From NCBI GenBank assembly GCA_025360605.1, contig JANYBV010000009.1, positions 1 to 64,000 on the forward strand: a DNA stretch of 64,000 nt. Reading direction: 5' to 3'. Positions 1,898 through 37,807 of the stretch are shown here, piece after piece. This DNA is from Alphaproteobacteria bacterium. GTDB taxonomy: Bacteria; Pseudomonadota; Alphaproteobacteria; Rickettsiales; SXRF01. Numbering within the stretch: position 1 is the first letter of the stretch; each line of letters opens with the position of its first letter. The translations under genes and the position numbers were made by a program. The notes beneath the pieces are model-generated. The model was not told where the DNA came from and searched no databases. It worked only from the letters and a program-made list of their open reading frames with translations.

Positions 1898-2238
1898 AGA
1901 AATTGTTAGGTCTTAAAAAAGGCAAGAAAGACGCAGTATCTGTTGCGCGTGCGTATCACTATGATGTGATCGTCTCGCCGGTAGTGACTGAAAAATCAAC
2001 CGCTGCTTCCGAACAGAACAAAGTGGTATTCAACGTGCATCTGGATTCCACCAAGGAAGACATCAAGTCCGCTGTTGAAGCACTTTTCAATGTGAAAGTA
2101 GCGAAAGTTAACACGCTGCGCCGCCTTGGTAAAATCAAGCGCTTCCGCAACACGGTTGGCAAATTGTCCGATACTAAAAAAGCGATCATCACCTTGGCCG
2201 AAGGTCAGGCGATCGATCTTAGCGCAGGAGTGAAATAA
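1894..2238 (+). CDS. rplW: 50S ribosomal protein L23
   Basis: L23 sits at the tunnel exit and is the docking site for trigger factor and SRP. The product has 114 residues, a little longer than the usual 95-100 because of a basic N-terminal stretch ([23 protein letters not shown]). The core contains [20 protein letters not shown] and the [17 protein letters not shown] segment. It overlaps rplD by four bases and precedes rplB. Confidence 0.96.
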
Positions 2239-2240
2239 CC

Positions 2241-3068
2241 ATGGCACTCAAAAGTTTTAAACCAACGACCCCAGCCCAGCGCCAACTCGTCATCGTTGAC
2301 CGTTCGGAACTCTGGAAAGGTAAACCGGTTAAGGCCCTGACTGAAGGTAAAAACAAGTCAGGTGGTCGCAACAATAACGGTCGTTTGACATCATTCCGCG
2401 TCGGCGGTGGTCACAAGCAATCGCTCCGTCTGATCGATTTCAAACGTCGTAAGTTCGACGTTCCTGCGGTCGTGGAGCGCATTGAATATGATCCGGGCCG
2501 TACCAGCTTCATCGCGCTGATAAAATATTCTGACGGTGAACTTGCGTACATCATTGCGCCGCAGCGTCTGGCAGTGGGTGATACGGTTATTTCGTCTGAT
2601 AAGGCCGACATCAAACCAGGTAACGCTATGCACCTGAAGAGCATTCCGGTGGGTACCATTATCCACAATGTGGAAATGAAAGAAGGCAAGGGTGGCCAGC
2701 TGGCTCGCTCCGCCGGTACCTATGTTCAGCTCGTTGGTAAAGATGGTGGTTACGCTCAGGTGAAGTTGCGTTCGGGTGAATTGCGCCTGATCCGCGGCGA
2801 ATGCCTTGCAACCATCGGTGCTGTATCCAACCCTGATCACCAGAACATCGTGATCGGCAAGGCAGGCCGCAGCCGTTGGCTTGGTATCCGTCCTTGCGTA
2901 CGCGGTGTGGCGATGAATCCAGTGGATCATCCGCATGGTGGTGGTGAAGGGCGCACCTCCGGTGGTCGTCATCCTGTGACACCATGGGGTAAAGGCACCA
3001 AGGGAACGAAGACACGTTCCAAGAAGAAAAAGAATAAGCTCATTATTAAAAATAGGCATGGGAAGTAG
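2241..3068 (+). CDS. rplB: 50S ribosomal protein L2
   Basis: L2 is needed for subunit association and peptidyl transfer. The 275-residue product has normal length. The conserved loop [20 protein letters not shown], which holds the essential His, lies near the C-terminus, followed by [19 protein letters not shown]. It starts two bases after the rplW stop. Confidence 0.98.
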
Positions 3069-3070
3069 TT

Positions 3071-3367
3071 ATGGCACGTTCAGTATGGAAAGGCCCTTTT
3101 GTTGATGGTTACCTGCTTAAGAAAGCAGACGTAGCTCGCGCATCAGGCCGCAACCAGATCATCAAAACCTGGTCGCGTCGTTCAACTATTTTGCCTCAGT
3201 TTGTTGGCCTCACCTTTGGTGTGTACAACGGCAAGAAGTTCATCCCTGTGTCGGTTAACGAAGACATGATTGGTCACAAGCTCGGTGAATTTTCACCGAC
3301 CCGTACCTTCACCGGTCACACCGCACAAGACAAGAAGGCTGAGAAGCCTGCACAGAAGAAAGGTTGA
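3071..3367 (+). CDS. rpsS: 30S ribosomal protein S19
   Basis: S19 forms a complex with S13 in the 30S head and contacts the A-site tRNA. The 98 residues start [20 protein letters not shown] and include the diagnostic [23 protein letters not shown] and [16 protein letters not shown]. The last ten residues are Lys/Ala-rich. Only two bases separate it from rplB. Confidence 0.98.
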
Positions 3368-3370
3368 TAA

Positions 3371-3859
3371 ATGAGCAAGAAAGCAACAGAGCGCTCTTTA
3401 GAAGCGAACGAGGCAAAGGCGGTGGTAAGGCACATCCGTATTTCTCCTCGCAAACTCAATCTGGTCGCAGGCATGATCCGTGGCATGAGCGTTAACAACG
3501 CCCTGACACAGTTGTCGTTCTCCGGTAAGCGTATTGCTAACGATGTGAAAAAAGCACTTCAGTCGGCGATTGCTAATGCGGAAAACAACCATAACCTCAA
3601 CGTGGATTCACTGATCGTGAAGGAAGCGTATGTCGGTAAGAACATGGTGATGAAGCGTATGCACACCCGCGGTCGTGGCCGTTCGGCTGGGATCATTAAA
3701 CCCTTTTCCAACCTGACTCTCATTGTACGTGAGCAGAATGAAGAAGACGTTAAAGCGGCGAAAGCTAAAAAAGTGAAAAAGGCAGAAGCGAAGAAGCCGG
3801 CCGCTAAGAAAGCGCCAGCCAAAGCTAAAGCGGCGCCAAAAGCTAAGGAGTCAAAATAA
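3371..3859 (+). CDS. rplV: 50S ribosomal protein L22 with Ala/Lys-rich tail
   Basis: L22 lines the exit tunnel next to L4. Residues 1 to about 122 form the normal L22 fold ([38 protein letters not shown]). The remaining 40 or so residues are an almost pure Ala/Lys/Pro tail, so the protein has 162 residues against the usual 110-130. The stop overlaps the rpsC start by one base (TAATG). Confidence 0.96.
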
Positions 3860-4560
3860 TGGGTCAAAAAGTTAACGCCATATCGTTACGCGTAGGCATC
3901 AACAAAACGTGGGATTCACGTTGGTATGCCGGCGCGGAATATGCTGACAAGCTGCACGAAGATTTCAAAATCACCGCGTACCTGAAAAAGACGCTTGATG
4001 CAGCCGGTGTAAGCAAGATCATCATCGAACGTCCGACCAAGAAAGCCCACATCACCATTCACACGGCTCGCCCGGGTGTCGTGATCGGCAAAAAAGGCGC
4101 GGATATCGACAAGATCAAGAAAGATCTCGCGAAATACACCAAGGACGAAGTGCATATCAACATCGTTCCTGTCGCGAAGCCTGAACTGGATGCGACCCTG
4201 ATCGCTGAAAGCATTGCGCAGCAGCTCGAAAAACGCGTGGCGTTCCGCCGTGCGATGAAGCGCTCTGTTCAATCCTGCCTGCGTCTTGGCGCACTGGGTA
4301 TCCGCGTGAACGTTTCGGGTCGCTTAGGCGGCGCGGAAATCGCGCGCATGGAATGGTACCGCGAAGGTCGCGTGCCGTTGCACACACTGCGTGCTGACGT
4401 GGATTACGGTATTGCTCGCGCTGAAACCGCTTATGGCACCATCGGTGTTAAAGTGTGGGTGTTCAAGGGCGAGATCCTCGGCAAAGAAAAGAAGATCATT
4501 CATGAAGATGCGCCTGTTGTAGAAACGGCCTCGATTGAATCACTCAACACTGATAACTAA
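3859..4560 (+). CDS. rpsC: 30S ribosomal protein S3
   Basis: S3 lies at the mRNA entry channel and has RNA-unwinding activity. The 233-residue product has the KH-domain motif [17 protein letters not shown] and the C-terminal domain with [21 protein letters not shown]. It starts on the last base of rplV, which suggests translational coupling. Confidence 0.98.
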
Positions 4561-4578
4561 GAACTGGCAATTATCCCT

Positions 4579-4992
4579 ATGATGAGTCCTAAAAAAACCA
4601 AATACCGCAAGATGCACAAAGGGCGTATTAAAGGCGCTGCTAAAGGCGGTTCGACACTCAATTTCGGTCAGTACGGTCTGAAGGCCTTGGAGCCTGAACG
4701 CGTTACTGCCCGTCAGATCGAAGCGGCACGCCGTGCGATTTCGCGTTATGTTAAGCGTGTGGGCCGTATGTGGATCCGTATTTTCCCTGACGTTCCGGTG
4801 ACCCGCAAACCAGCGGAAGTGCGCATGGGCTCGGGTAAGGGTTCGGTAGAATTCTGGGCTGCTCGTGTGAAGCCTGGCCGTATTATTTTTGAGATCGATG
4901 GTGTTGACGAAAAGACAGCCCGTGAAGCGTTTGACCGCGCTTCGGCGAAGCTGCCGATCAAGACGAAATTCGTCTCGCGTCAAGGAGAATAG
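4579..4992 (+). CDS. rplP: 50S ribosomal protein L16
   Basis: L16 helps position the A-site tRNA. The 137 residues include [39 protein letters not shown] and [19 protein letters not shown], all diagnostic. Two adjacent ATG codons (4579 and 4582) are possible starts; the protein begins M(M)SPKKTKYRK either way. Confidence 0.98.
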
Positions 4993-4994
4993 TT

Positions 4995-5261
4995 ATGATG
5001 AAGATTGCTGAATTGCGTGCAAAAACCAAAGAAGAACTGAAGGATCTGGTTCTGTCTTTGAAAAAAGAACAGTTCAACCTGCGCATGCAGGCGTCGACTG
5101 GCGCTCTGGAGAATAAAGGACGTTTCAAGGAAGTTCGCCGCACGATCGCTCGTGCCAAGACCCTCCTGATCGAAGAACCAAAAGCGGTAAAGGCAAAGGC
5201 TCCTAAGAAAGCTAAGGAAGCTGCTCCTAAGAAAACCGCTGCTAAAGCTAAGAAAGGATAA
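4995..5261 (+). CDS. rpmC: 50S ribosomal protein L29 with Ala/Lys-rich tail
   Basis: L29 lies near the tunnel exit beside L23. Residues 1 to about 60 form the two-helix L29 core (KIAELRAKTKEELKDLVLSLKKEQFNLRMQ). The last 26 or so residues are Lys/Ala/Pro repeats, giving 88 residues instead of about 65. ATG codons at 4995 and 4998 are both possible; AAGGAGAA lies upstream. Confidence 0.95.
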   Translation: MMKIAELRAKTKEELKDLVLSLKKEQFNLRMQASTGALENKGRFKEVRRTIARAKTLLIEEPKAVKAKAPKKAKEAAPKKTAAKAKKG

Positions 5262-5264
5262 CCC

Positions 5265-5516
5265 ATGCCAAGGCGTGTACTCACAGGTGTCGTTGTAAGC
5301 GACAAGAATGAAAAAACGGTTGTTGTTCGCGTCGATCGTCGCGTTCGTCACCCTATTTACAAGAAAACCATCCAGCGCTCCAAGAAGTATGCGGCGCACG
5401 ATGAGAAGAGCCAGTTCAAGATTGGTGATGCGGTGCAGATCATTGAATCGCGTCCCTATTCCAAGACCAAGTGCTGGGAAGTGTTGTACGAAGCGCAAGA
5501 CAAAAAGAAGGCATAA
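5265..5516 (+). CDS. rpsQ: 30S ribosomal protein S17
   Basis: S17 is a primary 16S rRNA binder with an OB fold. The 83 residues include [31 protein letters not shown] and the C-terminal [13 protein letters not shown], both typical. It starts three bases after rpmC. Confidence 0.97.
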
Positions 5517-5528
5517 GGGAACAGGTAT

Positions 5529-5897
5529 ATGATTCAACAACAAAGTAATTTAGAAGTCGCAGACAATTCCGGTGCCCGCCGCGTGATGTGCATTAAGGTT
5601 ATCGGTGGTTCACAGCGTCGTTATGCTTCGGTAGGCGACGTGATTGTGGTCTCCGTGAAAGAAGCGATTCCACGTGGTAAAGTGAAAAAAGGCGAAGTGC
5701 ACCGCGCGGTTATCGTGCGCACCAAGCGCGACATTCACCGTCCCGATGGCAGCACCATCCGTTTTGACAAAAACGCGGCCGTGCTGATCACCAAGCTGAA
5801 TGAACCGATCGGTACCCGTATCTTTGGACCGGTGACCCGCGAATTGCGTGCAAAGCAGTTCATGAAGATCGTGTCTCTGGCACCTGAAGTATTGTAA
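5529..5897 (+). CDS. rplN: 50S ribosomal protein L14
   Basis: L14 forms part of the intersubunit surface. The 122-residue product has the standard length and the motifs [33 protein letters not shown] and [13 protein letters not shown]. It opens the spc part of the cluster (L14-L24-L5-S14-S8). Confidence 0.98.
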
Positions 5898-5913
5898 GAT
5901 TAGGAAAAACAAC

Positions 5914-6231
5914 ATGGCTACGAAATTTAAAGTAAAAAAAGGTGACGAAGTTGTCGTTATTGCCGGTAAAGAAAAAGGCAAAAAAGGCAAGATCACCAAA
6001 GTTATCACCGATACGTCCCGCGTAGTGGTAAAAGGCCTCAACATGGTGAAGAAGCACACCAAGCCGTCGCGCACTGGTGCGGGTGGACTGGTTGAAATGG
6101 AAGCTCCTTTGCATGTGTCCAATGTGGCGTTGATTGATCCCAAGAGCGGCAATGCAACCCGTGTTGGCTACAAAATTAAAGAAGACGGTACCAAGCTGCG
6201 TATCGCCAAGAAGTCAGGAGAAGTGGTATGA
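5914..6231 (+). CDS. rplX: 50S ribosomal protein L24
   Basis: L24 initiates large-subunit assembly. The 105 residues contain the KOW motif near the N-terminus ([23 protein letters not shown]) and [26 protein letters not shown]. Its stop overlaps the rplE start by four bases (ATGA). Confidence 0.97.
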
Positions 6232-6869
6232 GCGGTAAGACTGAACCAAAAGTAAAAAAAGAAAAAGCACCCGCTACAGAAAAAGCAGTCAAAGGTGTTG
6301 CCAAGCAGACCGTGAAAAGTGGCTATACTCCGCGCATGCAGGCTTTGTATGATAAGGAAATCCGTGCGATCATGCAAAAGCAGTTCAACTATACGAACGC
6401 GATGCAGATTCCGAAGCTCGACAAGATCGTGATCAACATGGGTGTGGGCGAAAACGTCAACGATAGCAAGATTATCAACGCTGCCGTATCCGATATGACA
6501 CTTATCTCCGGTCAGAAGCCGCAGGTGACCAAGTCGAAGAAAGCTATCGCGAGCTTCAAGCTGCGTGAAAATCTTCCGATCGGTTGCAAAGTGACCCTGC
6601 GCAAGCAGAAGATGTATGAATTTCTGGACCGCCTGATCAACACCGCTTTACCGCGCGTGCGTGACTTCCGCGGCGTATCCCATAAGAGCTTTGACGGCCG
6701 TGGCAACTATGCCCTCGGTTTGAAAGAGCAGCTGGTATTCCCGGAAATCAATTACGACAAGATTGACCAGATTCGTGGCATGGACATTATTATCGTCACC
6801 ACCGCGAAAACGGATGCAGAAGCGAAGGCACTGTTGACCGCGTTCAACATGCCCTTTATCAAAAACTAA
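6228..6869 (+). CDS. rplE: 50S ribosomal protein L5 with basic N-terminal extension
   Basis: L5 is part of the central protuberance and binds 5S rRNA. The core starts around residue 33 ([17 protein letters not shown]) and contains [11 protein letters not shown] and the [21 protein letters not shown] signature. The first 30 or so residues are Lys/Ala/Glu-rich and unusual, making 213 residues against about 180. The start at 6228 is supported by AGGAG upstream and by the overlap with rplX. Confidence 0.96.
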
Positions 6870-25947: not shown

Positions 25948-26032
25948 GCGGTCGTGGCGGAATTGGTAGACGCACTACCTTGAGGTGGTAGCTCCGCGAG
26001 GAATGGAAGTTCGAGTCTTCTCGACCGCACCA
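25948..26032 (+). tRNA. tRNA-Leu(GAG)
   Basis: A class II tRNA of 85 bases including an encoded CCA. The acceptor stem GCGGTCG/CGACCGC is perfect. The anticodon stem CTACC/GGTAG holds the loop TTGAGGT with anticodon GAG at 26.0 kb (25982-25984). A long variable arm and the T-loop GTTCGAGTC are present. It lies just left of the recombinase cassette, so it could be linked to element integration. Confidence 0.96.
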
Positions 26033-26078
26033 TAACTTATTATTGTAAGACAGTAATATGGCTATTACCCTGTGAGCC

Positions 26079-26102
26079 GCGCTATTCCGGCGGTCTTTTT
26101 TG
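26079..26102 (+). terminator. Possible terminator after tRNA-Leu
   Basis: An imperfect stem of GAGCCGC with GGCGGTC surrounds a short loop and is followed by six T. It would end the tRNA-Leu transcript. Pairing includes a bulge or G-U pairs, so confidence is moderate. Confidence 0.45.
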
Positions 26103-26195
26103 AACATGGGACGGGAGATAATAAAAAGAGGGTAAGAACAGTGGGATTCCGGCTGGTTCTCTCTGTTTGGTATTTGGGCAGTCCCGTTTGCGGAG

Positions 26196-27839
26196 TTAGT
26201 TGAAGCCGAGAAGGCGTTTCTGCTCAGGCCATGCCAACGGCAGGTCAATGCGCGCCACCAGCTTTTCAAGGTTGAGATCGATGGGCTGCTGACCTGAGGC
26301 GATGGATTTCATAATGCCGGGGTCAAGGAAGGCAAGTAATAATCGTTTGTTGATATAGCTCTTGTCGACACCCTCGCGCGCTGCGATTTCAGTAATACGC
26401 TTTACCTTTCCAGATAGCAGCTCCTGGAACCAGACATGTGCGCGGCGGGTGGTTTTGATTAATGTCTGATCCATTCTGGCCGGGCCGCTAGCATCAATCA
26501 CCAGCCGCATCTCAATGCCCCGCCGCTTCATCTGTATGGGGATGTCACGGATGATGGTAACGGCAAGTGCATTGTGATCTGCAGGCACAAGCGATGCCAA
26601 CGACAGTGTCAGGCGGATGCTATCTTCTTGTAACTCCACCCGCTGGACAAAACGGTCAATCAACCCTGTGTCATCGGCCTGAACATTTCCGGCAGCCTGA
26701 ATGACGGCAGGCGTGTGATTGGATTTGATCCCAGCATCCTGCAGGGCAGTGGTAAGAGCAGAGCGATTATCAAGAATCGTTTTCGTAGCCTTCATAACCG
26801 TCTGTTCAACCTCCTGTGCCGGGAGACGCCAGCTATTAGGTGACTGAGCTTTCGTTCCGGTCATCAGGCTGTTAGAGATGTAATAGCGGTACCGCCGTCC
26901 TTGTTTGACCGCATGGCTGGGTGTAAGCCGGTTACCAGATGCATCAAACAATTTGCCAATGAGCAGGCTGGGACAGGTCTTTCGTGGATGACCATCTTTC
27001 CCCGGCCCCTGGGCGGTCAGTTGCTGCTGCACCTGTTCCCATAGAGTCTGATCGATAATGGCTTCGTGCTGGCCGGGGTAGCATGTACCCTGATGCCGGA
27101 TCTGCCCGATATAGATCGGATTTGAAAGCAGTTTATAAATGGCACCGCGCGTCATGAACTGCCCTCCGGGACGCGAGGAGTGCTTTCTGGATTTGGACCG
27201 TATGTTTTCCCGGACCATCTCCTCCTGCAGCAAACGCACATTGCCCAGTTCCAGATAACGCTGGAATATAATACGGACGGTTTTGGCTTCTTCGTCATTA
27301 ATCACCAGCTTGCGGTCAACCACATCATAGCCAAGCGATAATACGCCGCCCATCCACATGCCCTTCTTCTTTGATGCAGCGATCTTGTCCCGGATGCGCT
27401 CGCCGGTGACCTCGCGCTCGAACTGGGCAAAGGATAATAGCACGTTCAACGTAAGCCTGCCCATGGAGGTGGTGGTATTAAATTGCTGCGTGATAGAGAC
27501 AAAGGACACATTATGCTTGTCAAACACATCGACCATCCGGGCGAAGTCATGCAGGGAACGTGATAGGCGGTCCACCTTATAGACGACAATGACATCTATC
27601 TTTCCGGCTTCAATATCCTCCATCAATTGTTTAAGTGCCGGGCGGTTGACATTGCCACCACTGAATCCGCCATCGTCATAGTGCGTCTTGATCATCTGCC
27701 AGCCTTCATGCTTCTGGCTGGTTATGTACGCTGCGCAGGCTTCCCGCTGCGCATGCAGGGAGTTAAATTCTTGCTCCAGTCCCTCTTCGGTGGATTTACG
27801 GGTATAAATGGCGCAGCGCAGTACCTGCTTCGTGCTCAT
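26196..27839 (-). CDS. Large serine recombinase (resolvase/invertase family)
   Basis: This is a 547-residue site-specific recombinase. The resolvase domain is at the N-terminus: nucleophile S16 in IYTRKSTEEG, then SLHAQREACAAYI, DGGFSGG-type sequence, VVYKVDRLSRSLHDF and FAQFEREVTGERIRDKI. A Recombinase domain with AIYKLLSNPIYIGQIRHQG follows around residue 230. The start overlaps the upstream DUF2924 gene by four bases. The three-gene cassette (DUF3489-DUF2924-recombinase) is known from alphaproteobacterial mobile regions. Its far side abuts a broken cas1, so it probably caused or accompanied loss of the left part of the CRISPR-Cas locus. Confidence 0.93.
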   Translation of the reverse strand: MSTKQVLRCAIYTRKSTEEGLEQEFNSLHAQREACAAYITSQKHEGWQMIKTHYDDGGFSGGNVNRPALKQLMEDIEAGKIDVIVVYKVDRLSRSLHDFARMVDVFDKHNVSFVSITQQFNTTTSMGRLTLNVLLSFAQFEREVTGERIRDKIAASKKKGMWMGGVLSLGYDVVDRKLVINDEEAKTVRIIFQRYLELGNVRLLQEEMVRENIRSKSRKHSSRPGGQFMTRGAIYKLLSNPIYIGQIRHQGTCYPGQHEAIIDQTLWEQVQQQLTAQGPGKDGHPRKTCPSLLIGKLFDASGNRLTPSHAVKQGRRYRYYISNSLMTGTKAQSPNSWRLPAQEVEQTVMKATKTILDNRSALTTALQDAGIKSNHTPAVIQAAGNVQADDTGLIDRFVQRVELQEDSIRLTLSLASLVPADHNALAVTIIRDIPIQMKRRGIEMRLVIDASGPARMDQTLIKTTRRAHVWFQELLSGKVKRITEIAAREGVDKSYINKRLLLAFLDPGIMKSIASGQQPIDLNLEKLVARIDLPLAWPEQKRLLGFN

Positions 27840-28285
27840 GCTGCCCCCTTCCTCAATCCGAAGAATAAGGGGCCAGACCAGCGCGTGCCGGTGATGGCGC
27901 GTGCTACTTTCGAGAGTGAGCGGTAGTGCTTGCCATTACACTGCACGCCTTTTTCCAGTACAATGACCTCATAGGTCACACCATGCCATTCGCGTAGCAG
28001 CCGCGTGCCAGGTTTTATGGTAAGCGCAGGAACCGCCCCCTGCCGTCCCGCCGATGCATCGTCAGGCGCCTTTTCCAGCCAACGCCGCGTGGCTGAATCC
28101 AATCCGCCAGATACATTTTCCTGCATGCGGTAGGCAATGGCCCGGATCATGAGCTGACGGCTGATGCCAGCCGGTGGGGCGTTGCCATACAGCTTCCGCC
28201 ATTGTTCCACTAGCGCGGGACGGTCAAGGTCAGGAAGGCCTGCCAGTTCACCGGCAAGCCTCCCTGCATCGATAGTGCGTTTCAC
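27836..28285 (-). CDS. DUF2924 domain protein
   Basis: A 149-residue protein with the DUF2924 pattern: LPDLDRPALVEQWRKLYGNAPPAGISRQLMIRAIAYRMQE near the start and GTRLLREWHGVTYEVIVLEKG followed by YRSLSKVARAITGTRWSGPLFFGL at the end. The function is not known; it regularly accompanies this type of serine recombinase. It overlaps both neighbours by four bases, so the three genes form one translation-coupled unit. Confidence 0.85.
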   Translation of the reverse strand: MKRTIDAGRLAGELAGLPDLDRPALVEQWRKLYGNAPPAGISRQLMIRAIAYRMQENVSGGLDSATRRWLEKAPDDASAGRQGAVPALTIKPGTRLLREWHGVTYEVIVLEKGVQCNGKHYRSLSKVARAITGTRWSGPLFFGLRKGAA

Positions 28286-28539
28286 AGGCGGCTCACGCTG
28301 CCCGTAATACGATAGACCCGTCCGCGTTCTTCTTTTTCGGAGGTGACGGTAAGGCCAAGTTTCTTTTTGATAACGCCGGACATCATGCCGTGGATGCTAT
28401 GTCGCTGCCAGCCCGTCGCCTTGGCCATTTCATCGATGATAGCACCGGTGGGACGCTGAAGCAGTGCTAGTATTTTTGCCTTCTTTGAATCGCCTGTAAT
28501 ATTCTTCGGCTCTACAGCCCTTGCGGAGGATGAGCGCAC
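28282..28539 (-). CDS. DUF3489 domain protein (small winged-helix-like)
   Basis: The 85-residue product contains KKAKILALLQRPTGAIIDEMAKATGWQRHSIHGMMSGVIKKKLGLTVTSEKEERGRVYRI, the DUF3489 pattern, which looks like a small DNA-binding winged helix. The only starts in frame are non-ATG (GTG at 28539), and I see no good ribosome binding site upstream, so its 5' end may have been cut at the junction with cas1. Confidence 0.8.
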   Translation of the reverse strand: MRSSSARAVEPKNITGDSKKAKILALLQRPTGAIIDEMAKATGWQRHSIHGMMSGVIKKKLGLTVTSEKEERGRVYRITGSVSRL

Positions 28540-28575
28540 ACGTTTGTCGCGCGCCTGCCCATAACTGCGGGTTTA
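28540..28575. other. Junction between recombinase cassette and cas1 remnant
   Basis: Homology to the DUF3489 gene ends near 28540 on the minus strand, and recognisable Cas1 sequence begins on the plus strand near 28570 (the codons for GLHHCNRQN). In-frame cas1 reading upstream of this hits a TGA at 28531-28533. The breakpoint therefore lies within about 30 bases. I could not identify an inverted or direct repeat marking it. Confidence 0.65.
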
Positions 28576-28878
28576 CACCACTGCAATCGTCAGAACTCCA
28601 TGCCGCTGGCGGATGACTTGATCGAGCCATTCCGCCCACTGGTAGATCACATGGTGCATGAGTTAGCGAAGGAAGAAATTAAGGAACTTGGGCGCGAACA
28701 GAAACAAACCCTTGCGGGGATTCCTCTGGTTGATTGCACTGTAGAGGGTGAAACCTCGCCGCTGGGGGTTGCTATACTCAGGACTGCCACGAGCCTTGCC
28801 AATTCCTACAGAGAGCGCCGCAATCTATTGGTGCTGCCCGACAGCCTGTTTCCACCGAAACAAGCATGTCTAATGTAA
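28570..28878 (+). pseudogene. cas1: Truncated cas1 (type II), C-terminal third only
   Basis: Cas1 is the integrase that adds spacers. The remaining roughly 100 codons read GLHHCNRQNSMPLADDLIEPFRP and continue to LVVLP-like sequence; this is the C-terminal part of type II Cas1, with the metal-binding His and Asp regions. The N-terminal domain and the conserved Glu of the active site are missing, so it cannot be a working integrase. An internal ATG at 28600 would allow a 92-residue fragment. It overlaps cas2 by 13 bases. Confidence 0.88.
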
Positions 28879-29210
28879 TGCAACAACTAAGCGCGTACCG
28901 TATTATGTGGCTCATTTGCATGTTCGACCTGCCTGTGACGGAGGGCGATGAGCGTAAAAAAGCCACACAGTTCAGAAATGATCTGCTCGACGAAGGGTTC
29001 GAGATGGCGCAATTTTCGGTCTATATGCGCCACCTTCCGAGCCGCGAAAAGGCAGATGCACTCACCAAACGGTTGATTGCCAGAGTACCGCCGGATGGCA
29101 AGGTGAGTATCATTATAATTACGGATAAGCAGTTTGGGGAAATCACTTCGTATCGTAATTTAAAGCCCCAATCGCCCGCAAAAAAACACGATCAACTAGT
29201 GCTATTATGA
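28866..29210 (+). CDS. cas2: CRISPR-associated Cas2 (type II)
   Basis: Cas2 is the dimeric scaffold of the Cas1-Cas2 spacer-integration complex. The 114 residues include YRIMWLICMFDLPVTEGDERKKA with the conserved Asp at position 21, then FRNDLLDEGFEMAQFSVYMRH and a VSIIIITDKQFGEI strand. It is intact and lies 73 bases before the CRISPR array. Without a full Cas1 it has no obvious local partner. Confidence 0.93.
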   Translation: MSNVMQQLSAYRIMWLICMFDLPVTEGDERKKATQFRNDLLDEGFEMAQFSVYMRHLPSREKADALTKRLIARVPPDGKVSIIIITDKQFGEITSYRNLKPQSPAKKHDQLVLL

Positions 29211-29283
29211 GTAATACAATGCAGTTTAATGAAAGGAGAAATGGCCCAAATCACTTATTTCTAAATAACTTAGGCCAATACCT

Positions 29284-29715
29284 ATTCTAGACGATTGGGA
29301 GATGGTGTCTAGCCGTAACTACCTGCCGCTGTTACTACTCAGATTGTAGATTCTAGACGATTGGGAGATGGTGTCTAGCCGTAACTTATTCTCCGATACG
29401 ACACAGATGCTTTCAATTCTAGACGATTGGGAGATGGTGTCTAGCCGTAACGTGGTGATGGTGGCAGTTGCTGCTGCTTGAATTCTAGACGATTGGGAGA
29501 TGGTGTCTAGCCGTAACTTGTCGATGCAGATACGCAGAATTTTCAAAATTCTAGACGATTGGGAGATGGTGTCTAGCCGTAACGGACTGCCGCTACTACT
29601 AAAGGCACAGTTGATTCTAGACGATTGGGAGATGGTGTCTAGCCGTAACTATTAGAAGTCCGAAGCGGTTACGTGGATAATTCTAGACGATTGGGAGATG
29701 GTGTCTAGCCGTAAC
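29284..29715. CRISPR. CRISPR array, seven 36-bp repeats, six 30-bp spacers (type II)
   Basis: The repeats are at 29284-29319, 29350-29385, 29416-29451, 29482-29517, 29548-29583, 29614-29649 and 29680-29715, all identical as read. Each begins ATTCTAGACGATTGGGAGAT on the plus strand and ends GTCTAGCCGTAAC. Every spacer is exactly 30 bases. A 36/30 pattern next to cas2 fits type II-C. On the minus strand the repeat starts GTTACGGC and ends CTAGAAT, the usual type II orientation, so crRNAs are probably read leftwards. CTAGAC and GTCTAG inside the repeat form an inverted pair. I see no cas9 or anti-repeat (tracrRNA) in the window. ORFs across the array are repeat artefacts. Confidence 0.97.
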
Positions 29716-29868
29716 GCTATGCATCTGGCAGATACGCCAACAGTACAATTGCAGGCGCCTGATAAGCCGATAGAGATTAACCTCAATGTCAATATCGAGC
29801 AGCATGTAAGGGTTTCAATCGAGAAAGACGTCAAGCAGGCAATTGCAAAAAACAAGGAAATATTTTAG
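29716..29868 (+). pseudogene. ynbE: 5'-truncated ynbE-like lipoprotein gene
   Basis: Directly after the last CRISPR repeat the plus frame reads TPTVQLQAPDKPIEINLNVNIEQHVRV and ends EIF-stop. This matches the mature part of YnbE, a small outer-membrane-linked lipoprotein encoded with ydbH and ydbL. The signal peptide and lipobox Cys are missing: the frame enters the repeat and meets TAG in the last spacer. ATG at 29698 (in the repeat) or 29719 could start a non-secreted fragment. ydbH is not present upstream. Confidence 0.75.
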
Positions 29869-30867: not shown

Positions 30868-31257
30868 ATGAACAAGGCATATATTTTACTCGCATCAGTA
30901 GCAGCTTTCGCTTTGAACGCTCCTGCTTTCGCAGCTGATGAATCCATGAAAACAGAAACCAAGATCGAAAAGGATTCAAAAGGCAATTACGATGAAAAAG
31001 ACAAAACCGTAACCAAAGACGCATCAGGTAAAACCGTCGATGAAAAGAAAGTCGATGTTGACGTAAATGCTAAGGGCGAAACTGATAAAACGGTAAAAAC
31101 CAAGCATGTGCACAGCAAGGGTCTCTTGCATAAGGATGATAAGGTAACCACCAAGGATACCGAAAAGACCAAGGATGGTCAGGTGACCGCCACCCACGAA
31201 AAGAAGGTCGATGGCAAGACTGTGGAAAGCACCACTGAAACTGCGCCTAAGCAGTAA
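30868..31257 (+). CDS. Secreted Lys/Asp/Thr-rich repeat protein
   Basis: The 129 residues begin with a clear Sec signal (ILLASVAAFALNAPAFAAD). The mature part is highly charged and low in complexity, with imperfect repeats of the type KTVDEKKVD, KGETDKTVKT, KDGQVTATHEKKVDGKTVES and a central HVHSKGLLHKDDK. It lacks Cys and aromatic residues apart from one Tyr, and is probably disordered in the periplasm. I recognise no family. AGAAAGG precedes the ATG, and a strong inverted repeat follows the stop. Confidence 0.75.
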   Translation: MNKAYILLASVAAFALNAPAFAADESMKTETKIEKDSKGNYDEKDKTVTKDASGKTVDEKKVDVDVNAKGETDKTVKTKHVHSKGLLHKDDKVTTKDTEKTKDGQVTATHEKKVDGKTVESTTETAPKQ

Positions 31258-31688: not shown

Positions 31689-32768
31689 TTAGTGCTTGCC
31701 GGACGATGATATGGGTATATGCCCGTGCCGATGATGAATATCTGGATAATGGGTATGGCTATGCGTCATCGGCTCATGCGCATGCGGATGGCTGTGTGGC
31801 TCAGTACCGTCCCACTCAAAATCATGCTTATGCTGATGGTGAGCATCGTGAAAATGTTTATGGTCATGCTCCATCGCTTCATGCCTATGGAGATGTTCGT
31901 GTCGTTCGGTCAGATGCAGCCATATACCGCCAGCCATTAGCGTTCCTGCCAGCCAAAAAGTTATCGCTGGGCTTTCCTGCATTAGTAAGAGTGAGATAGC
32001 AGCGCCGACGAAAGGAGCCAACGAAAAATAAGCACCGGTGCGCGCAGTTCCTAAATGACGCAGTGCCAGCACAAACATCACCAGGCTTAGGCCATAGCCA
32101 AGAAAACCAAGCAAGCCCGCCTGAGCCAGCAATGATACGGCAGGAAACCTATTGCCGAGCGCCAAGCCTATTGAAAGATTCACAATACCTGCAACAAGTC
32201 CTTTAATTCCTGCAATCTGTACCGGATCGCTGGCGGAAACTTTACGCGTAAGGTTATTATCGATGCCCCAACAGAAACATGCACCTGCCACCAACAAAGA
32301 ACCAATAGGCAGGCGCAAGCCATTAGCCTCTTGCCATGATAATGCTACACCACCCGCAATAATCAGCAGCATGCCAATAAAAATACGTCGGTCGAAATTC
32401 TCTTTGAACACGAACCATGCCAGCATCGAAGTAGCCACACCTTCCAAATTAAGCAATAGTGATGCACTGGATGCTGGCGTATATGTTAGACCGAACATTA
32501 AAAGTATCGGTGCTATGATACCGCCTGACAGAATAGCACCACTTAGCCAGGGCCAATCTTTGCGCGTAAGCATAGCTTCGGCTTTTGGTGCTTGCGCAGG
32601 TGCCAATCGGCGAAAAATCATCCAAAGCGAAAGGCCAAGACCCGATCCGGCATAAAGCAATCCTGCCAGCATTACAGGCGGCATATCTCCAACCAACAAT
32701 TTCGCGAAGGGAGTGCTTGCGCCAAAAAGGGCAGCAGCCGCTATGGCGTACAATATTCCCTTGTTCAT
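31689..32768 (-). CDS. EamA/DMT-family transporter with His-rich C-terminal tail
   Basis: Residues 1 to about 290 form a ten-helix drug/metabolite transporter (AAAALFGASTPFAKLL at the start, two EamA repeats). The last 70 residues are a polar tail with dozens of His in HxH and HDHKH patterns (residues about 291-359), which looks like a metal-binding cytoplasmic or periplasmic extension. Being the last gene of a metal-resistance block, it may export a divalent metal or a metal complex; this is inference. It follows the COG4280-like gene by two bases. Confidence 0.8.
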   Translation of the reverse strand: MNKGILYAIAAAALFGASTPFAKLLVGDMPPVMLAGLLYAGSGLGLSLWMIFRRLAPAQAPKAEAMLTRKDWPWLSGAILSGGIIAPILLMFGLTYTPASSASLLLNLEGVATSMLAWFVFKENFDRRIFIGMLLIIAGGVALSWQEANGLRLPIGSLLVAGACFCWGIDNNLTRKVSASDPVQIAGIKGLVAGIVNLSIGLALGNRFPAVSLLAQAGLLGFLGYGLSLVMFVLALRHLGTARTGAYFSLAPFVGAAISLLLMQESPAITFWLAGTLMAGGIWLHLTERHEHLHRHEAMEHDHKHFHDAHHQHKHDFEWDGTEPHSHPHAHEPMTHSHTHYPDIHHRHGHIPISSSGKH

Positions 32769-32770
32769 AC

Positions 32771-33523
32771 CTAATTCCTAATACTGTTGCCTTGAATCCA
32801 TTTGACCGATAGCAATGCGGCCATCAGCAGTCCAACCATAAGGCCGAGAATAGCCAGATCATCACCCGGCCATTCAAAACCGCTACCTTTGCCCATCCAA
32901 AAGATTCCGAAAGCTGATAAAATTACACCAACACCAAATTTAAGGCTGTTCTCAGGAATGCGCATCAATGGTCTATGGAGCAGCAGGCCAAGCCCTACTA
33001 CTACCAACATAGCTAAAGCAGCGCCTAAAGCAGCTGGAAGCAATGATGCTTCCGCAGCCCCTACCGCAACCACAATAAATACGACTTCCACTCCTTCAAG
33101 CACGACGGCCTTAAAGCCTGTGACCAGTGCAATCCAATCCCACCCCTGTACTTTACCGGTTCGCTTCATTTCGGACATTTCTTCTTGGTAGATGAGTGCC
33201 TGGTCATGCAGTGGCTTTCTACCCGCCGCCCTTAGCACGGCCTTGCGAAGCCAACTCATACCAAAAACAAACAAAAGCCCACCAAGGCTGATTTGTAGCC
33301 ATGCAATCGGAATAGGAAGATGACGCAGTAGCGGATTAAAAACAAGGACAAGTACAATAAGCAGCAATAATCCCGTTGCCGTTCCTAGCAGAACTGACCG
33401 CCAGCCGCGCGTCGCACCTACCGCCAGCACAATCGTAAGCGCTTCGACACATTCAACCAACGAAGCGAGAAAGGCAGCAAGCGACGACGTACTCCAATGC
33501 AACCATGCAATCATTTCTGGCAT
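32771..33523 (-). CDS. COG4280-like integral membrane protein
   Basis: The 250-residue protein has about six or seven membrane segments in two related halves. Each half has an acidic helix motif: LVECVEALTIVLAVGATRGW near residue 22 and KAVVLEGVEVVFIVVAVGAA near residue 138. This duplicated glutamate pattern resembles predicted membrane proteins of COG4280 and, more distantly, cation exchangers. The substrate is unknown; the neighbours suggest a metal. It sits between the Cu-ATPase and the EamA transporter. Confidence 0.6.
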   Translation of the reverse strand: MPEMIAWLHWSTSSLAAFLASLVECVEALTIVLAVGATRGWRSVLLGTATGLLLLIVLVLVFNPLLRHLPIPIAWLQISLGGLLFVFGMSWLRKAVLRAAGRKPLHDQALIYQEEMSEMKRTGKVQGWDWIALVTGFKAVVLEGVEVVFIVVAVGAAEASLLPAALGAALAMLVVVGLGLLLHRPLMRIPENSLKFGVGVILSAFGIFWMGKGSGFEWPGDDLAILGLMVGLLMAALLSVKWIQGNSIRN

Positions 33524-33618: not shown

Positions 33619-35997
33619 TTAAAGCTTAACTGACCGAAGCCGCAAGGAATTGATAATGACCGATACCGAGCTTAAGGCCATAGCTGCGCTTGCAATGATG
33701 GGGCTAAGCAATATGCCAAAGAACGGATACATCACTCCCGCTGCCAATGGCACGCCAAGCGCGTTATAAATAAAGGCGAAGAATAAATTCTGGCGGATAT
33801 TCTTCATCGTGGCACGGCTTAAATGCCTTGCACGCACGATCCCCATTAAATCGCCGTGCAATAATGTAATGCCTGCGCTTTCCATCGCCACATCGGCACC
33901 GGTACCCATAGCAATACCAACATCAGCCTGGGCAAGCGCAGGCGCATCGTTAATGCCATCCCCTGCCATCGCTACCTTGCGGCCTTGTTCTTGCAGTTTC
34001 CTGATCGCTGCGTTCTTTTGATCGGGCAACACATCGGCTTCTACTTCTTCGATTCCCACCTTTTTAGCTACTGCCATGGCCGTGGTTTTATTATCACCGG
34101 TTATCATAACGATGCGCAGTCCTTCGGCTTTCAATTGCTTGATGGCTTCGACAGTATTTTCCTTAATGGGATCGGCTACGGTTATAATACCTGCCGCTTT
34201 GCCGTCTATTGCTACAAACATGGCCGTATGGCCTTGCCCACGATAGCTATCTGCCTTGGTTTTGACGCCCGTTACCGCGATGTTTAACGACTCTAGTAAA
34301 GCAAGATTACCCAGCGCTACGCTTCGGCCATTAATTTTGCCGGTGACGCCTTTGCCAGTGACTGCCTGAAAATCCGTGGCGTTTATAAGCTGTGCACCTT
34401 TTGCTTCTGCACCCTTTACAATGGCTTCGGCCAGCGGATGCTCACTGCCGCGCTCTAGGCTTGCGGCAAGTGACAGGATAGTTACTTCATCAAAACCTTC
34501 GGCAGGTATCACATTCATGAGCTTCGGCTTGCCTTCGGTTAACGTGCCGGTTTTATCGACAATAAGCGTATCGACTTTTTCAAAGGTTTCCAATGCTTCG
34601 GCGTTTTTGATAAGAACCCCGGCTTTTGCACCTCTGCCAGTTCCCGCCATAATCGCCATGGGTGTAGCCAGTCCTAATGCGCAAGGGCACGCGATGATAA
34701 GAACGGCAACAGCATTCAATACGGCATAGCCGGGGCGTGGTTCCGGCCCGTAAATACCCCAGACTATACCTGCAATAATGGCTATCAATATCACCACCGG
34801 CACGAAATATCCTGATACCTTATCAGCCAGGCGCTGAATCGGCGCTCGCGAGCGCTGGGCTTGGCTCACCATATTCACGATCTGCGCCAGCAGTGTGTCG
34901 CCGCCAATCTTCTCCGCACGCATCGTGAAGCTGCCATAGCCATTAATTGTAGCACCGGTCACTTTGTCGCCTGGATGCTTTTCTACCGGTATTGGTTCGC
35001 CAGTAATCATGGATTGGTCAACGGAGCTTCCTCCCTCCAATACAACGCCATCGACCGGGATTTTCTCGCCGGGACGAACGCGTAAGGCATCACCGACCTG
35101 CACTTGTGAAAGTGGAATATCCTGCTCACTGCCATCGGCATTGACTTTTCGTGCCGTATCCGGTGCCAGCTTCAACAGTGCACGGATGGCATTGCCGGTT
35201 TGTGCGCGAGCTTTTAATTCCATTACCTGGCCAAGCAGCACCAATACCGTAATGACAGCCGCAGGCTCGAAATAAATCTGTGGCATGGCATCGCTGCCTG
35301 TCAACCCGGCCAGCAATTGCGGTGCAAGCGTGACAATCAAGCTGTAGATATAGGCCACACCGATCCCCATACCGACCAATGTGAACATATTCGAGCTTTT
35401 ATTTTTGAGTGATTGCCAGAAACGTTCAAAGAACGGCCAGCCACACCATAAGACTACCGGCGTGGCCAGCGCCAATTGCAGCCAGGCGGAGGAAGGAGTC
35501 ATTAGGAAACCATGCAACCCTTCCCATACGTGCGCACCCATGTTGATAAAGAGCAGCGGCAGGGAAAGAACACCAGATATCCATAAACGGCGCGTCATAT
35601 CGATTAGTTCATGATTAGGTGCCGTATCCAACGAGACTTTCTCTGGCTCTAGCGCCATTCCGCAAATTGGGCAGTTACCGGGCTTTGGCTGCCGCACCTG
35701 TGGGTGCATCGGACAGGTGTACATCATATCCATGCTATCAGTAGCCACTGACAGCGGCGTTGGCTTTTCATGTGCGTGATCATGTTGGCAGCAGCTGGCA
35801 TGCACTTTAGTTGGCCGGGTATAATCGCCGGGGCTGGCCTTAAACTTATCGAGGCAGCGCTTGCCACAGAAATAGTAATCGTTATCGCCTAAATGATGCT
35901 TAAATTTAGACGTAGCCGGATCGACATTCATCCCGCACACCGGGTCTTTTACCGTGTTGGTGTCGGCGATGATGGGCATAGCATGTTGATGTTGCAT
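33619..35997 (-). CDS. copA: Copper-translocating P1B-type ATPase with YHS and heavy-metal-binding N-terminus
   Basis: This pump exports Cu(I) (or silver) from the cytoplasm using ATP. Of 792 residues, about 15-60 form a YHS-type domain ([20 protein letters not shown]), and about 93-120 a metal-binding [20 protein letters not shown] motif. The transmembrane CPC is at about 437-439 ([11 protein letters not shown]), the phosphorylated Asp is D481 ([10 protein letters not shown]), and the hinge [16 protein letters not shown] is near residue 690. There is no classical CxxC HMA domain at the N-terminus; the separate MerP-like protein at 36422 could supply metal. Confidence 0.93.
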
Positions 35998-36038: not shown

Positions 36039-36422
36039 TTATAGTAATCTCGGGGCGACAAAGGCGAAAAAGAAGCCAGTGGCATACATGACGACTGAAA
36101 AACAAAACACACCGAAGCTAATGCGCCTCAACCTTGCGCATGCTTTGGCTTTGGCGGGATCGGCGGGACATGGCGCGTTGCGATTCAGATAGCGCATGAT
36201 ACTAGAAAGCGTCAGCATCGTACCGGCGAAGACAAACAATCCTACTTTATGTTCCGATAGCCAGATTAATTGCGGCACATTGGAAACAATGCCTCCCAGT
36301 GCCGCGCCTGCACCGAGTGCTACGAATAAGGCAGGCAGGGCGCAACAAAAGAGCGTGCTGAATGACCCGAATAGCGCCAGTGTGGATACCAGGCCGGAAG
36401 CCGTGCGTTTTTCTGCGTGCAT
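36039..36422 (-). CDS. MerT-like metal transport membrane protein
   Basis: The 127 residues have three hydrophobic segments. The first contains a vicinal Cys pair (FSTLFCCALPALFVALGAG, residues about 26-27), and a loop carries a second pair (APCPADPAKAKAC). Both features are as in the mercuric transporter MerT, which passes Hg(II) from MerP across the inner membrane. No merA reductase is present in the window, so the metal is uncertain. It starts on the last base of the MerP-like gene (TAATG). Confidence 0.72.
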   Translation of the reverse strand: MHAEKRTASGLVSTLALFGSFSTLFCCALPALFVALGAGAALGGIVSNVPQLIWLSEHKVGLFVFAGTMLTLSSIMRYLNRNAPCPADPAKAKACARLRRISFGVFCFSVVMYATGFFFAFVAPRLL

Positions 36423-36706
36423 TACTTTCCTCTGGTTATGTTGGTAACCGTATATCCGGCATCGGTGAGCAGTTTAGTAATAGTCGCATCATCAAGCTTC
36501 TCTAAAGACTTAGTATCTATTGTAACAAGCTTGTTTTCCAAATCGACTTTGACGTTATCGACGGCGGGTTGCGCCTTAAAGGTTTTCTCAATGCCGGTAG
36601 CGCAGAAGGCGCAAACAAGGCCATTAACAGTAGCTTTAATGGTTTCGCCGTAAGCCGTGCCGGAAATGAGAGTCAATGTGATTAAAGCTAATAAAAGTTT
36701 GCGCAT
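36422..36706 (-). CDS. MerP-like periplasmic heavy-metal-binding protein
   Basis: A 94-residue secreted HMA-fold protein. The signal peptide (LLLALITLTLISGTAYG) ends near residue 20. The metal motif is VNGLVCAFCATGIEKTF with one CxxC, followed by VKVDLENKLVTI and DAGYTVTNI, as in MerP and CopZ-like domains. It overlaps the MerT-like gene by one base and lies upstream of the Cu-ATPase, so it may hand metal to either. Confidence 0.85.
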   Translation of the reverse strand: MRKLLLALITLTLISGTAYGETIKATVNGLVCAFCATGIEKTFKAQPAVDNVKVDLENKLVTIDTKSLEKLDDATITKLLTDAGYTVTNITRGK

Positions 36707-36715
36707 AATTCCTCC

Positions 36716-37345
36716 TTAGAATTGTAATTGCCAGTTAAACATGACCTGGTGATTACTGCTGTAACCAGCCTCCACCAAGGTTGTTTTGTAAAAGAATCGC
36801 ACCAGCGGTGTGATGACGCGAGTTTGATCTTTAGCCGGGTGGTTATCAAACTGCAGCATGAACCAGGTATTCAAATCATCGTAATTAGCCAGATATGGCG
36901 CAAATCCGACACGCGCGCGTTGCCACACCGATGTTTCAACATGATCGGCATACATGCCACGAATTTCGTAGGATGTAAAAATGCGCCTACTTTCATAATC
37001 TAGTAAAATGCTCGACCATGCGGAAAATCCGTCCGTGCCGTGATAGTGGGAATCTCCCGCACCGGTCATGTTAAATATATTTGCCTGTCCATCGGGCATG
37101 TTCCAGCGCTTGACCAGGTAATTGAACTGCGGCCCAAGGATTTTAAACTCTTTGCCGCCTTCTTCCTGCTTAGCATATAGGCCAACGGCATAATCTTTGG
37201 TAATCGTATAATCCAATGAAAGCGTATGTCCGGTTTCATCATTTTCCTGCATCACCATAATCCCACCTGGATAAGAAATAGGCTTTGCCTCTACAGCAAA
37301 AGGTAAGGCAATAATGGATAGCGTTGCGCACAATAATTGTTTCAT
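36716..37345 (-). CDS. Secreted hypothetical protein, probable outer-membrane barrel
   Basis: The ATG at 37345 has GAGGAA upstream and overlaps the merR stop by four bases; an in-frame start at 37387 would lie inside merR. The 209-residue product has a signal peptide (LLCATLSIIALPFAVEA). The mature part has alternating polar and hydrophobic strands with many aromatic residues and a C-terminal Phe (FNWQLQF), typical of outer-membrane beta-barrels. I do not recognise a named family. Its place between the regulator and MerP suggests a role in metal handling. Confidence 0.65.
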   Translation of the reverse strand: MKQLLCATLSIIALPFAVEAKPISYPGGIMVMQENDETGHTLSLDYTITKDYAVGLYAKQEEGGKEFKILGPQFNYLVKRWNMPDGQANIFNMTGAGDSHYHGTDGFSAWSSILLDYESRRIFTSYEIRGMYADHVETSVWQRARVGFAPYLANYDDLNTWFMLQFDNHPAKDQTRVITPLVRFFYKTTLVEAGYSSNHQVMFNWQLQF

Positions 37346-37755
37346 GGATTCCTCTTTTTGCTGATATGCTCGAGAATCGGACAGCAATTGGCAGATGTGT
37401 CATCTGCCGGGCATTCCTTAGCAAGCTGCTTCAAAACCTTTTTGATTTCCTTAAGCTCCAATATGCGGCGTTCTGCTTCACTTATTTTGGATTCTGTGTG
37501 CTTTAGAATTTGAGCACACGTTGCTTTATCGGAAGTCTTTAATGTCAGCAGTTGGCGAATCTCGTCCAGGGTAAAGCTAAGTTCTTTCGCGCCACGTATA
37601 AAGCGCACCACGCGCACGGCATCAGGATTATAGAGCCGATAGCCAGCAGATGAGCGTGTTTCCGCTGCAATCAAGCCCATTTTCTCATAATAACGCAGCG
37701 TGTCAGTGCTAACGCCCGTCATTTCGCCTAACTTGCCTATGGTAAGTGGTTTCAT
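37342..37755 (-). CDS. MerR-family metal-responsive regulator
   Basis: The 137-residue protein has the MerR winged helix (LTIGKLGEMTGVSTDTLRYYEKMGLI, AGYRLYNPDAV) and a long dimer helix. The Cys trio C80, C115 and C124 has the same 35- and 9-residue spacings as the Hg/Pb/Cd-binding Cys of MerR, PbrR and CadR, with an extra C125 and H130. This suggests sensing of a thiophilic divalent metal rather than Cu(I), whose CueR sensors use two Cys. A dyad promoter lies directly upstream. Confidence 0.9.
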   Translation of the reverse strand: MKPLTIGKLGEMTGVSTDTLRYYEKMGLIAAETRSSAGYRLYNPDAVRVVRFIRGAKELSFTLDEIRQLLTLKTSDKATCAQILKHTESKISEAERRILELKEIKKVLKQLAKECPADDTSANCCPILEHISKKRNP

Positions 37756-37775: not shown

Positions 37776-37807
37776 ATCCTACACCTTGGAGTATACTCCA
37801 AGGTCAA
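37776..37807 (-). promoter_or_regulatory. MerR-type promoter/operator
   Basis: On the minus strand, TTGACC (37802-37807) and TAGGAT (37776-37781) are 20 bases apart. A perfect dyad CCTTGGAGTATACTCCAAGG (37784-37803) occupies the spacer. The over-long spacer with a central dyad is the hallmark of MerR-activated promoters. It would drive the regulator and the downstream minus-strand genes. Confidence 0.88.

Follow-up and report, generated by a model that had tools for sequence, protein, structure and literature searches.

The closest described system is CnrT of Cupriavidus metallidurans CH34, which is encoded on pMOL28 as the last gene of the Ni/Co RND operon cnrYXHCBA (together cnrYXHCBAT) and is placed within the drug/metabolite transporter (DMT) superfamily (TC 2.A.7) in the available text of PMC7019866. 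Excerpts of the CH34 literature refer to Ni(II) export 'by DmeF, CnrT, and CnrCBA' (PMC11647595) and to 'the CnrT inner membrane exporter' (PMC9045368). A second group of nickel exporters belongs to the MFS and comprises NreB, a Ni/H antiporter, with its homologues NirA and NcrA (available part of PMC9195940); in CH34 the RND pump and MFS gene are named nccCBA nreB in the section available of PMC7060636. The RcnA/NicO nickel-cobalt exporters also carry a His-rich cytoplasmic segment (PMC11247825, from an excerpt), although there it is an internal loop and the family is a different one from that of the protein studied here.

We analysed a 64,000-nucleotide stretch of an alphaproteobacterial genome (contig JANYBV010000009.1; hereafter the window) containing an ORF whose product belongs, by sequence comparison, to the CnrT family (Table 1). 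It shares with CH34 CnrT both the EamA family and the same two-unit tail, the CH34 protein scoring 63.1 bits against a profile of that tail. However, CH34 cnrT closes an operon for a Ni/Co RND pump, whereas the gene studied here is the last in a MerR-headed run beside copper genes and, unlike the CH34 gene, has a COG4280-like gene directly upstream. We favour, with a probability of roughly 0.7, a CnrT-type exporter, that is a ten-helix inner-membrane DMT carrier that would move Ni(II), and probably Co(II), outward, with a cytosolic tail forming a ladder of histidines, encoded by what is probably the last gene of a MerR-controlled metal-resistance operon. The two predicted beta-hairpins of the tail would collect Ni(II)/Co(II) from the cytosol at the inner mouth of the carrier, or alternatively the tail may act as a buffer or gate, and the DMT pore would expel the ion, presumably against protons, as reported for NreB in the available part of PMC9195940. 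Counting against Ni/Co export are the copper neighbours in the window together with the failure to recognise a cnr/ncc RND system there, the lack of recognised metal genes at most other loci, a tailed gene linked to thiamine genes and one tail-less homologue among 11, and co-location with a cobalt importer in some genomes is odd for a pure exporter. The earlier note on this DNA had proposed metal binding and metal export, and both are supported by CnrT homology, by conservation of the His pattern and by metal genes beside a minority of relatives; a transporter that would have been filed as 'unknown' thus becomes a candidate nickel/cobalt exporter of the CnrT type.

Table 1 Features of the CnrT locus in window coordinates
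Feature	Position	Strand	Basis
CnrT-type DMT (EamA) transporter with His-rich tail, 359 aa	31689..32768	-	PF00892; 56.6% identity to CH34 CnrT; AlphaFold2 (AF2) DMT fold
Ten-helix DMT core, residues 1-286	31911..32768	-	AF2 model helices; match to LicB (7b0k)
Tail unit 1, residues 290-315	31824..31901	-	Predicted beta-hairpin, alternating His, then DxHHxHxH; pLDDT about 70-77
Tail unit 2, residues 325-350	31719..31796	-	Predicted beta-hairpin, alternating His, then PDxHHxHxH
COG4280-like/OFeT_1-type membrane protein, 2 nt upstream of CnrT	32771..33523	-	PF16955, 33.7 bits (cut-off 26.9)
First ExxE motif of COG4280-like protein, residues 23-26	33446..33457	-	8/9 aligned rows, all that reach it
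Second ExxE motif of COG4280-like protein, residues 143-146	33086..33097	-	9/9 aligned rows
Copper-type P1B ATPase with YHS and HMBD domains	33619..35997	-	TIGR01511, 615.8 bits (cut-off 397)
127-aa protein without family match	36039..36422	-	Pfam, NCBIfam
MerP/CopZ-like HMA-domain protein	36422..36706	-	PF00403; NCBIfam models below cut-off
Protein without family match, exported by eye, has paralogues	36716..37387	-	No Pfam/NCBIfam match
MerR-family regulator, first gene of putative operon	37342..37755	-	Pfam, NCBIfam
Perfect 22-bp palindrome between TTGACC and TAGGAT	37783..37804		MerR-type operator/promoter layout

Family membership and tail of the transporter

Assignment of the protein to the CnrT family rests on its kinship with plasmid genes, its identity to CH34 CnrT and its position in a tree. 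When 72,556 plasmid records were searched in translation, 69 of them had a relative, 59 covering at least 80% of the query, and among the 40 matches listed those carrying gene names are cnrT, 'nickel diffusion facilitator', mostly from Cupriavidus; the CH34 protein bears this annotation too. The alignment with CH34 CnrT extends over residues 18-350, tail included, and in a tree of 53 cores the proteobacterial rows include CH34 CnrT, the window protein and a paralogue of the latter from contig C7 of the same genome. By analogy with the literature for CH34 CnrT, the window protein would export Ni(II). In Pfam, at E 0.001, it matches EamA only (PF00892 in two stretches, E 2.8e-31), with no Zip or Cation_efflux domain and no MFS domain; its common ground with NreB/NirA is the tail alone. 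Pfam likewise gave no match to NicO/RcnA, and the PRK10019 model reached 22.1 bits (cut-off 195) with an alignment lying across the tail.

An AF2 model built with 18 sequences has a mean pLDDT of 86.9 and a pTM of 0.81. The best structural match to its core is LicB (Z 27.7, rmsd 2.4 over 249 residues); the structural alignment rows (VIA-align) cover mainly residues 1-291 and therefore say little about the tail. With membrane borders taken from the model, an N-in, C-in orientation places 14 Lys/Arg residues inside and 2 outside, a bias that favours a cytosolic tail.

The earlier note had placed an EamA transporter with a His-rich C-terminal tail at this ORF, correctly in both position and observation: residues 285-359 (75 residues) hold 25 His compared with 1 His in residues 1-284. 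The densest 62-aa stretch contains 23 His; of the 164 stop-to-stop frames that reach 100 aa or more across all six frames of the window, the runner-up has 12. The tail consists of two tandem units, each roughly HxHxHxHx4HxHxHx(x)DxHHxHxH, for which AF2 predicts strands at residues 290-296/299-305 and 325-331/334-340 with block pLDDT values of about 70-78. Within unit 2 the hairpin scores 76-78 and residues 341-350 only 48, and over residues 341-359 the range is 33-48. The spacing suggests that the alternating His of each hairpin would lie on one face.

Alignment of the window protein, its paralogue and the proteins from 17 of 20 further loci showed the tail to have 22 His and 2 Asp that are invariant in 19/19 rows, which come from Pseudomonadota, Bacillota, Caldisericota, Actinomycetota, Cyanobacteriota and archaea, with most of the residues between the His varying. 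Three broken genes were left out, one frame-broken with its tail in the second piece (L009), one whose tail is shortened by a stop (L021) and one split gene in which no tail was found (L028). Shortened tails occur in archaeal/acidimicrobial relatives (L203, L206, L208) and some clostridial tails also vary, so the invariance is true of the 19 rows, not of every relative. A chance low-complexity run of His is ruled out by the fixed His positions among variable residues. No Pfam or NCBIfam model matches the tail above its cut-off and the tail profile gave no match among PDB sequences at E 10. The tail forms a distinct and strongly conserved module that probably binds metal.

That DMT transporters normally lack such tails, as the earlier note held, is wrong for the CnrT branch. 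Since searches with a DNA pattern select for the tail, the rate of its absence was measured with the core, and a core-only search of 299 genomes of the phylum at a strict limit (E 1e-40 or better) gave 11 matches in 10 genomes, with both tail units in 10 of the 11 proteins (two being the source genome's own). The tail-less exception (G223) is nested among tailed proteins in the tree, making tail loss the simpler reading. Tail-less homologues with a defined non-metal substrate had been named as evidence that would speak against a role in metal export; the G223 gene, however, lies directly behind a metal-sensitive repressor gene (PF02583) and near a chrA-like gene, and gives no pointer to such a substrate, yet one tailed clostridial gene does stand behind thiamine genes (see below), a position for which a metal reading has no explanation.

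The same tail on MFS proteins

A search of the 299 genomes with the tail profile (E 1e-5 or better) gave 17 matches in 16 genomes, of which 13 are CnrT-like DMT proteins, two of them the source genome's own, and four are NreB/NirA-like MFS proteins (G113, G169, G173 and G141). One of the 13 (G212), a fragment cut by a contig end, has no Pfam match and counts as CnrT-like by 58% identity over 108 residues. We identified two more tailed MFS proteins, one in G006 (L104) and one, annotated as MFS, on a Halomonas plasmid (L160), where the genes beside it encode a metal-sensitive repressor and a HupE/UreJ protein. The tailed MFS protein of L102 matches nirA/ncrA nickel-resistance genes on plasmids, one of which (44.3% identity) adjoins the nickel repressor gene ncrB, and is 50.4% identical to the CH34 MFS gene product, whose gene adjoins the RND pump. 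With TIGR00900, which has a cut-off of 319.6, the tailed MFS proteins reach only 237-281 bits, compared with 343.9 bits for the CH34 protein. Some relatives of NreB/NirA/NcrA thus carry the same His tail (L101-L104, L177 and the Halomonas plasmid), but on an MFS and not a DMT fold and with the ending FVIDxHH in place of the PDxHHRHxH of the CnrT type; the tail is missing from the CH34 MFS protein, and of it Enterobacter NcrA has a short piece at most.

When 10,135 six-frame ORFs of the loci were scored with the profile, no CnrT or MFS tail fell below 19.7 bits (the MFS protein of L104) and no other frame exceeded 10.4 bits. Thirty control loci picked by a DNA match to HxHxxDxHHxHxH (L031, L034-L036, L038-L063) scored at most 7.9 bits, a gap to which the HMMER composition correction adds; these scores also rule out a chance His run or a generic His-rich loop. 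A shuffle test of CnrT against MFS tails, which is weak on its own because shuffling destroys the HxH spacing, gave no clear separation for NcrA or the MFS protein of S. meliloti (their scores were reached by 7/500 and 6/500 shuffles, respectively), and the CH34 MFS protein was no better than its shuffles (479/500). Among the matches listed in searches of the open-licence PMC literature we found no description of a tail common to CnrT and NreB-type proteins. The profile provides a usable signature, as at E 1e-5 it picks only two carrier families from the 299 genomes, both of them kin of nickel exporters. With a His pattern nearly fixed from archaea to proteobacteria and on two folds, the old question becomes testable of whether the His-rich ends of metal pumps passively soak up ions or have a structure of their own and select among ions.

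Gene order, promoter and neighbours in the window

The window gene is the last of seven same-strand genes, which begin with MerR (37755) and end with CnrT (31689), no gap between them exceeding 95 nt. If transcribed together, they would form an operon of MerR regulator, exported protein, MerP-like chaperone, small protein, which we take by eye to be MerT-like, Cu-type P1B ATPase, COG4280-like permease and CnrT. Just upstream of the MerR gene, TTGACC and TAGGAT are separated by 20 bp (37776-37807), and a 22-bp palindrome in such a promoter layout arose in 0 of 100 shuffles of the window. A long-spacer promoter holding a palindrome is the classic MerR-type arrangement. Two more such sites in the genome, with one mismatch each, precede a paralogous MerR and exported-protein gene. 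Parts of the island have further paralogues, namely a cupredoxin-DUF4396-COG4280-CnrT run on contig C7 (L072), COG4280, MerR/exported-protein and MerP genes on C31 and a MerR-exported-protein pair on C37 (L180, L181); on C31 the MerR and exported-protein frames read through as a single 348-aa ORF. In the ORF lists of the window between 26 and 52 kb, inspected by eye, we recognised no cnr/ncc RND system, neither CnrYXH regulators nor a CnrCBA pump.

The genes next upstream leave copper as a rival substrate, such that the protein would export Cu or a broad range of divalent metals instead of Ni/Co and the tail would bind Cu. Copper genes in the window include a multicopper oxidase and a cupredoxin-CusF gene besides the copper-type ATPase, the paralogous pair on C7 also stands behind a cupredoxin-CusF gene, and His-rich peptides are known to bind Cu(II). 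We consider copper export unlikely however, as the metal neighbours recognised at other loci are more often of Ni/Co type (cbi, HupE/UreJ, hypF and some cnr-like RND genes), though three loci have P1B-like ATPases, and the tail is common to relatives of nickel exporters. ZntR models moreover fit the MerR protein slightly better (121.5 and 115.3 bits) than CueR (112.1) or MerR (108.5) models do, all of these scores being below cut-off, and the protein has a Cys at what we take to be the divalent-sensor position.

The duplicated acidic motifs that the earlier note saw in the COG4280-like neighbour are confirmed, ExxE occurring twice in the aligned sequences. The protein resembles OFeT_1 and TMEM165-GDT1 permeases in this duplication and in its PF16955 match; however, both the GDT1 model (PF01169, 23.5 bits, cut-off 27) and the EfeU model (19.4 bits, cut-off 255) remain below their cut-offs. 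Plasmid annotations use the GDT1/TMEM165 name and a Rhizobium protein with 50.5% identity is annotated 'COG4280 domain-containing'; the word COG4280 was not found in the literature searched. A single-sequence AF2 model of the neighbour was poor (pLDDT 54.8). The source genome contains two adjacent COG4280-CnrT pairs, a third COG4280 copy being cut by a contig end. Where contigs reach, no COG4280 gene lies within 7 kb of CnrT at any of 57 other loci, nor does a CnrT gene lie within about 1.5 kb of any of five COG4280 genes that come from four further genomes of the same class. The metal export pair suggested earlier therefore appears to be a local arrangement, seen in both complete copies of the source genome and rejected as a conserved pair outside it. 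Linkage to COG4280 and to P1B ATPases, which the earlier note had proposed to survey, occurs at 0/57 and 3/57 loci, respectively, and the description of the pair as poorly described was half right, given that CnrT is a named nickel exporter.

Convergent with the end of the CnrT gene is a small Lys/Asp-rich protein (30868-31257, plus strand), exported by eye and without a family match. Farther along, the window contains cas2 (28866-29210, TIGR01573) and a six-copy array repeating every 66 nt (29284-29716), behind a 92-aa ORF that has no Pfam match and by eye resembles a terminal part of cas1. A resolvase/recombinase gene (26196-27839; PF00239, PF07508) and a tRNA (25948-26029) lie nearby, and the region (25948-29716) is perhaps a decayed type II CRISPR locus.

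CnrT genes in other genomes

We examined 59 other loci, of which 57 have a recognisable CnrT core (L096 and L100 were dropped), and compared genes within 7 kb by BLAST with a small reference set; as several of the loci are on short contigs, absence within 7 kb is limited by contig ends. A CnrA-like RND gene is near nine of the 57, one being CH34 itself and four only 25-32% identical, HupE/UreJ-like genes are near five (two Pfam-checked), and ChrA-like genes are also near five, one of which is the reference itself and two under 31% identity. P1B-like ATPases occur near three loci and cbiM/N/Q near eight, hypF lies beside one, and CsoR/RcnR-type repressor genes are directly upstream of two. More than half of the 57 have none of the metal genes sought in the reference set. 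In one acidimicrobial genome a CDF cation-efflux gene (L204:6534-7448) lies directly 3' of the tailed CnrT gene.

In a sample of 149 genomes centred on Methanobrevibacter filiformis, six have the tail pattern and in all six the CnrT gene lies between cbiQ and cbiO, although at one of these loci the contig stops before cbiM and the CnrT gene is in two pieces. One methanogen genome has a methyltransferase gene (L144:4660-5250) between cbiQ and the CnrT gene. Clostridium drakei and C. carboxidivorans carry the CnrT gene 3' of cobK-cbiQ-cbiO-cbiM-cbiN, and both runs are headed by a cobalamin riboswitch (RF00174; 103.1 and 104.4 bits). The linkage is otherwise absent from 15 other clostridial loci (cbiM/N/Q) and, by ORF comparison, from 22 further archaeal and acidimicrobial loci. 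The two archaeal samples may come from one phylum, the tree labelling both centres Methanobacteriota. In the tree the two cbi-linked groups fall in different parts, separated by unlinked rows, though with long branches among these a single origin of the linkage is possible. We found no mention of CnrT-cbi linkage among the matches listed in the literature search or in the available text of PMC2667541.

Such gene orders would suit an importer or an accessory of CbiMNQO, with CnrT not always an exporter and the tail serving as a Co/Ni store, and some DMT proteins do import, among them LicB, the best structural match. This we regard as distinctly improbable, since the linkage is of limited extent and the available part of PMC11647595 presents the CnrT encoded behind cnrYXHCBA as an exporter. 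The cobalt-operon linkage hints that a single operon may balance import against export.

A different context was observed at one clostridial locus (L133, genome G712, 2149-6427), where a TPP riboswitch, thiE, a HAD hydrolase gene, thiD and a tailed CnrT gene follow one another in one direction, the last 43 nt behind thiD. Such an order would fit a substrate related to thiamine, or the genes may be neighbours by chance; although this is one locus, it stands against a metal-only CnrT family. The DMT superfamily carries mostly organic solutes, and EamA exporters of the CntI type export metallophores. That the window protein is an EamA carrier of an amino acid, thiamine-related compound or metallophore, its tail only sensing or buffering metal, would agree with this locus, with its closest PDB folds (choline, triose phosphate and nucleotide(-sugar) carriers) and with its nearest NCBIfam model (an organic-solute exporter, 37 bits, cut-off 230.2), but is very improbable given that CnrT is assigned to nickel export, that no metallophore synthesis gene was recognised by eye among the ORFs listed, that N107, E109, D170 and N171 of the core are invariant in 19/19 aligned proteins, though the substrate is not fixed thereby, and that thiamine genes were seen at one locus, the others not being exhaustively annotated.

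Returning to the preferred reading of a Ni/Co exporter, the two-fold distribution of the tail and its cobalt-operon linkage can be joined in a broader proposal, possible but doubtful, in which the tail would be an undescribed portable Ni/Co-handling domain exchanged between the unrelated DMT and MFS folds, and the tailed DMT protein would have been recruited into cbiMNQO operons of methanogens and some clostridia as a selectivity valve that expels the Ni admitted by the importer and spares Co for cobalamin synthesis.

No NiCo riboswitch was detected at the gathering threshold upstream of CnrT genes in 32 loci scanned (clostridial, archaeal and a few others) or in the window. The RNA matches in these 32 loci were two cobalamin and two c-di-GMP-I riboswitches (one of each in L020 and L023), a chrB-b RNA (L013), a T-box (L134) and the TPP riboswitch of L133. 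Both c-di-GMP-I aptamers (L020:6261-6349 and L023:6220-6308, minus strand) lie just behind a gene that is GGDEF-like by eye, on the strand opposite the tailed CnrT gene and directed towards its 3' end. As the aptamer of L020 has no long ORF behind it on its own strand, an antisense transcript over the tail is conceivable there.
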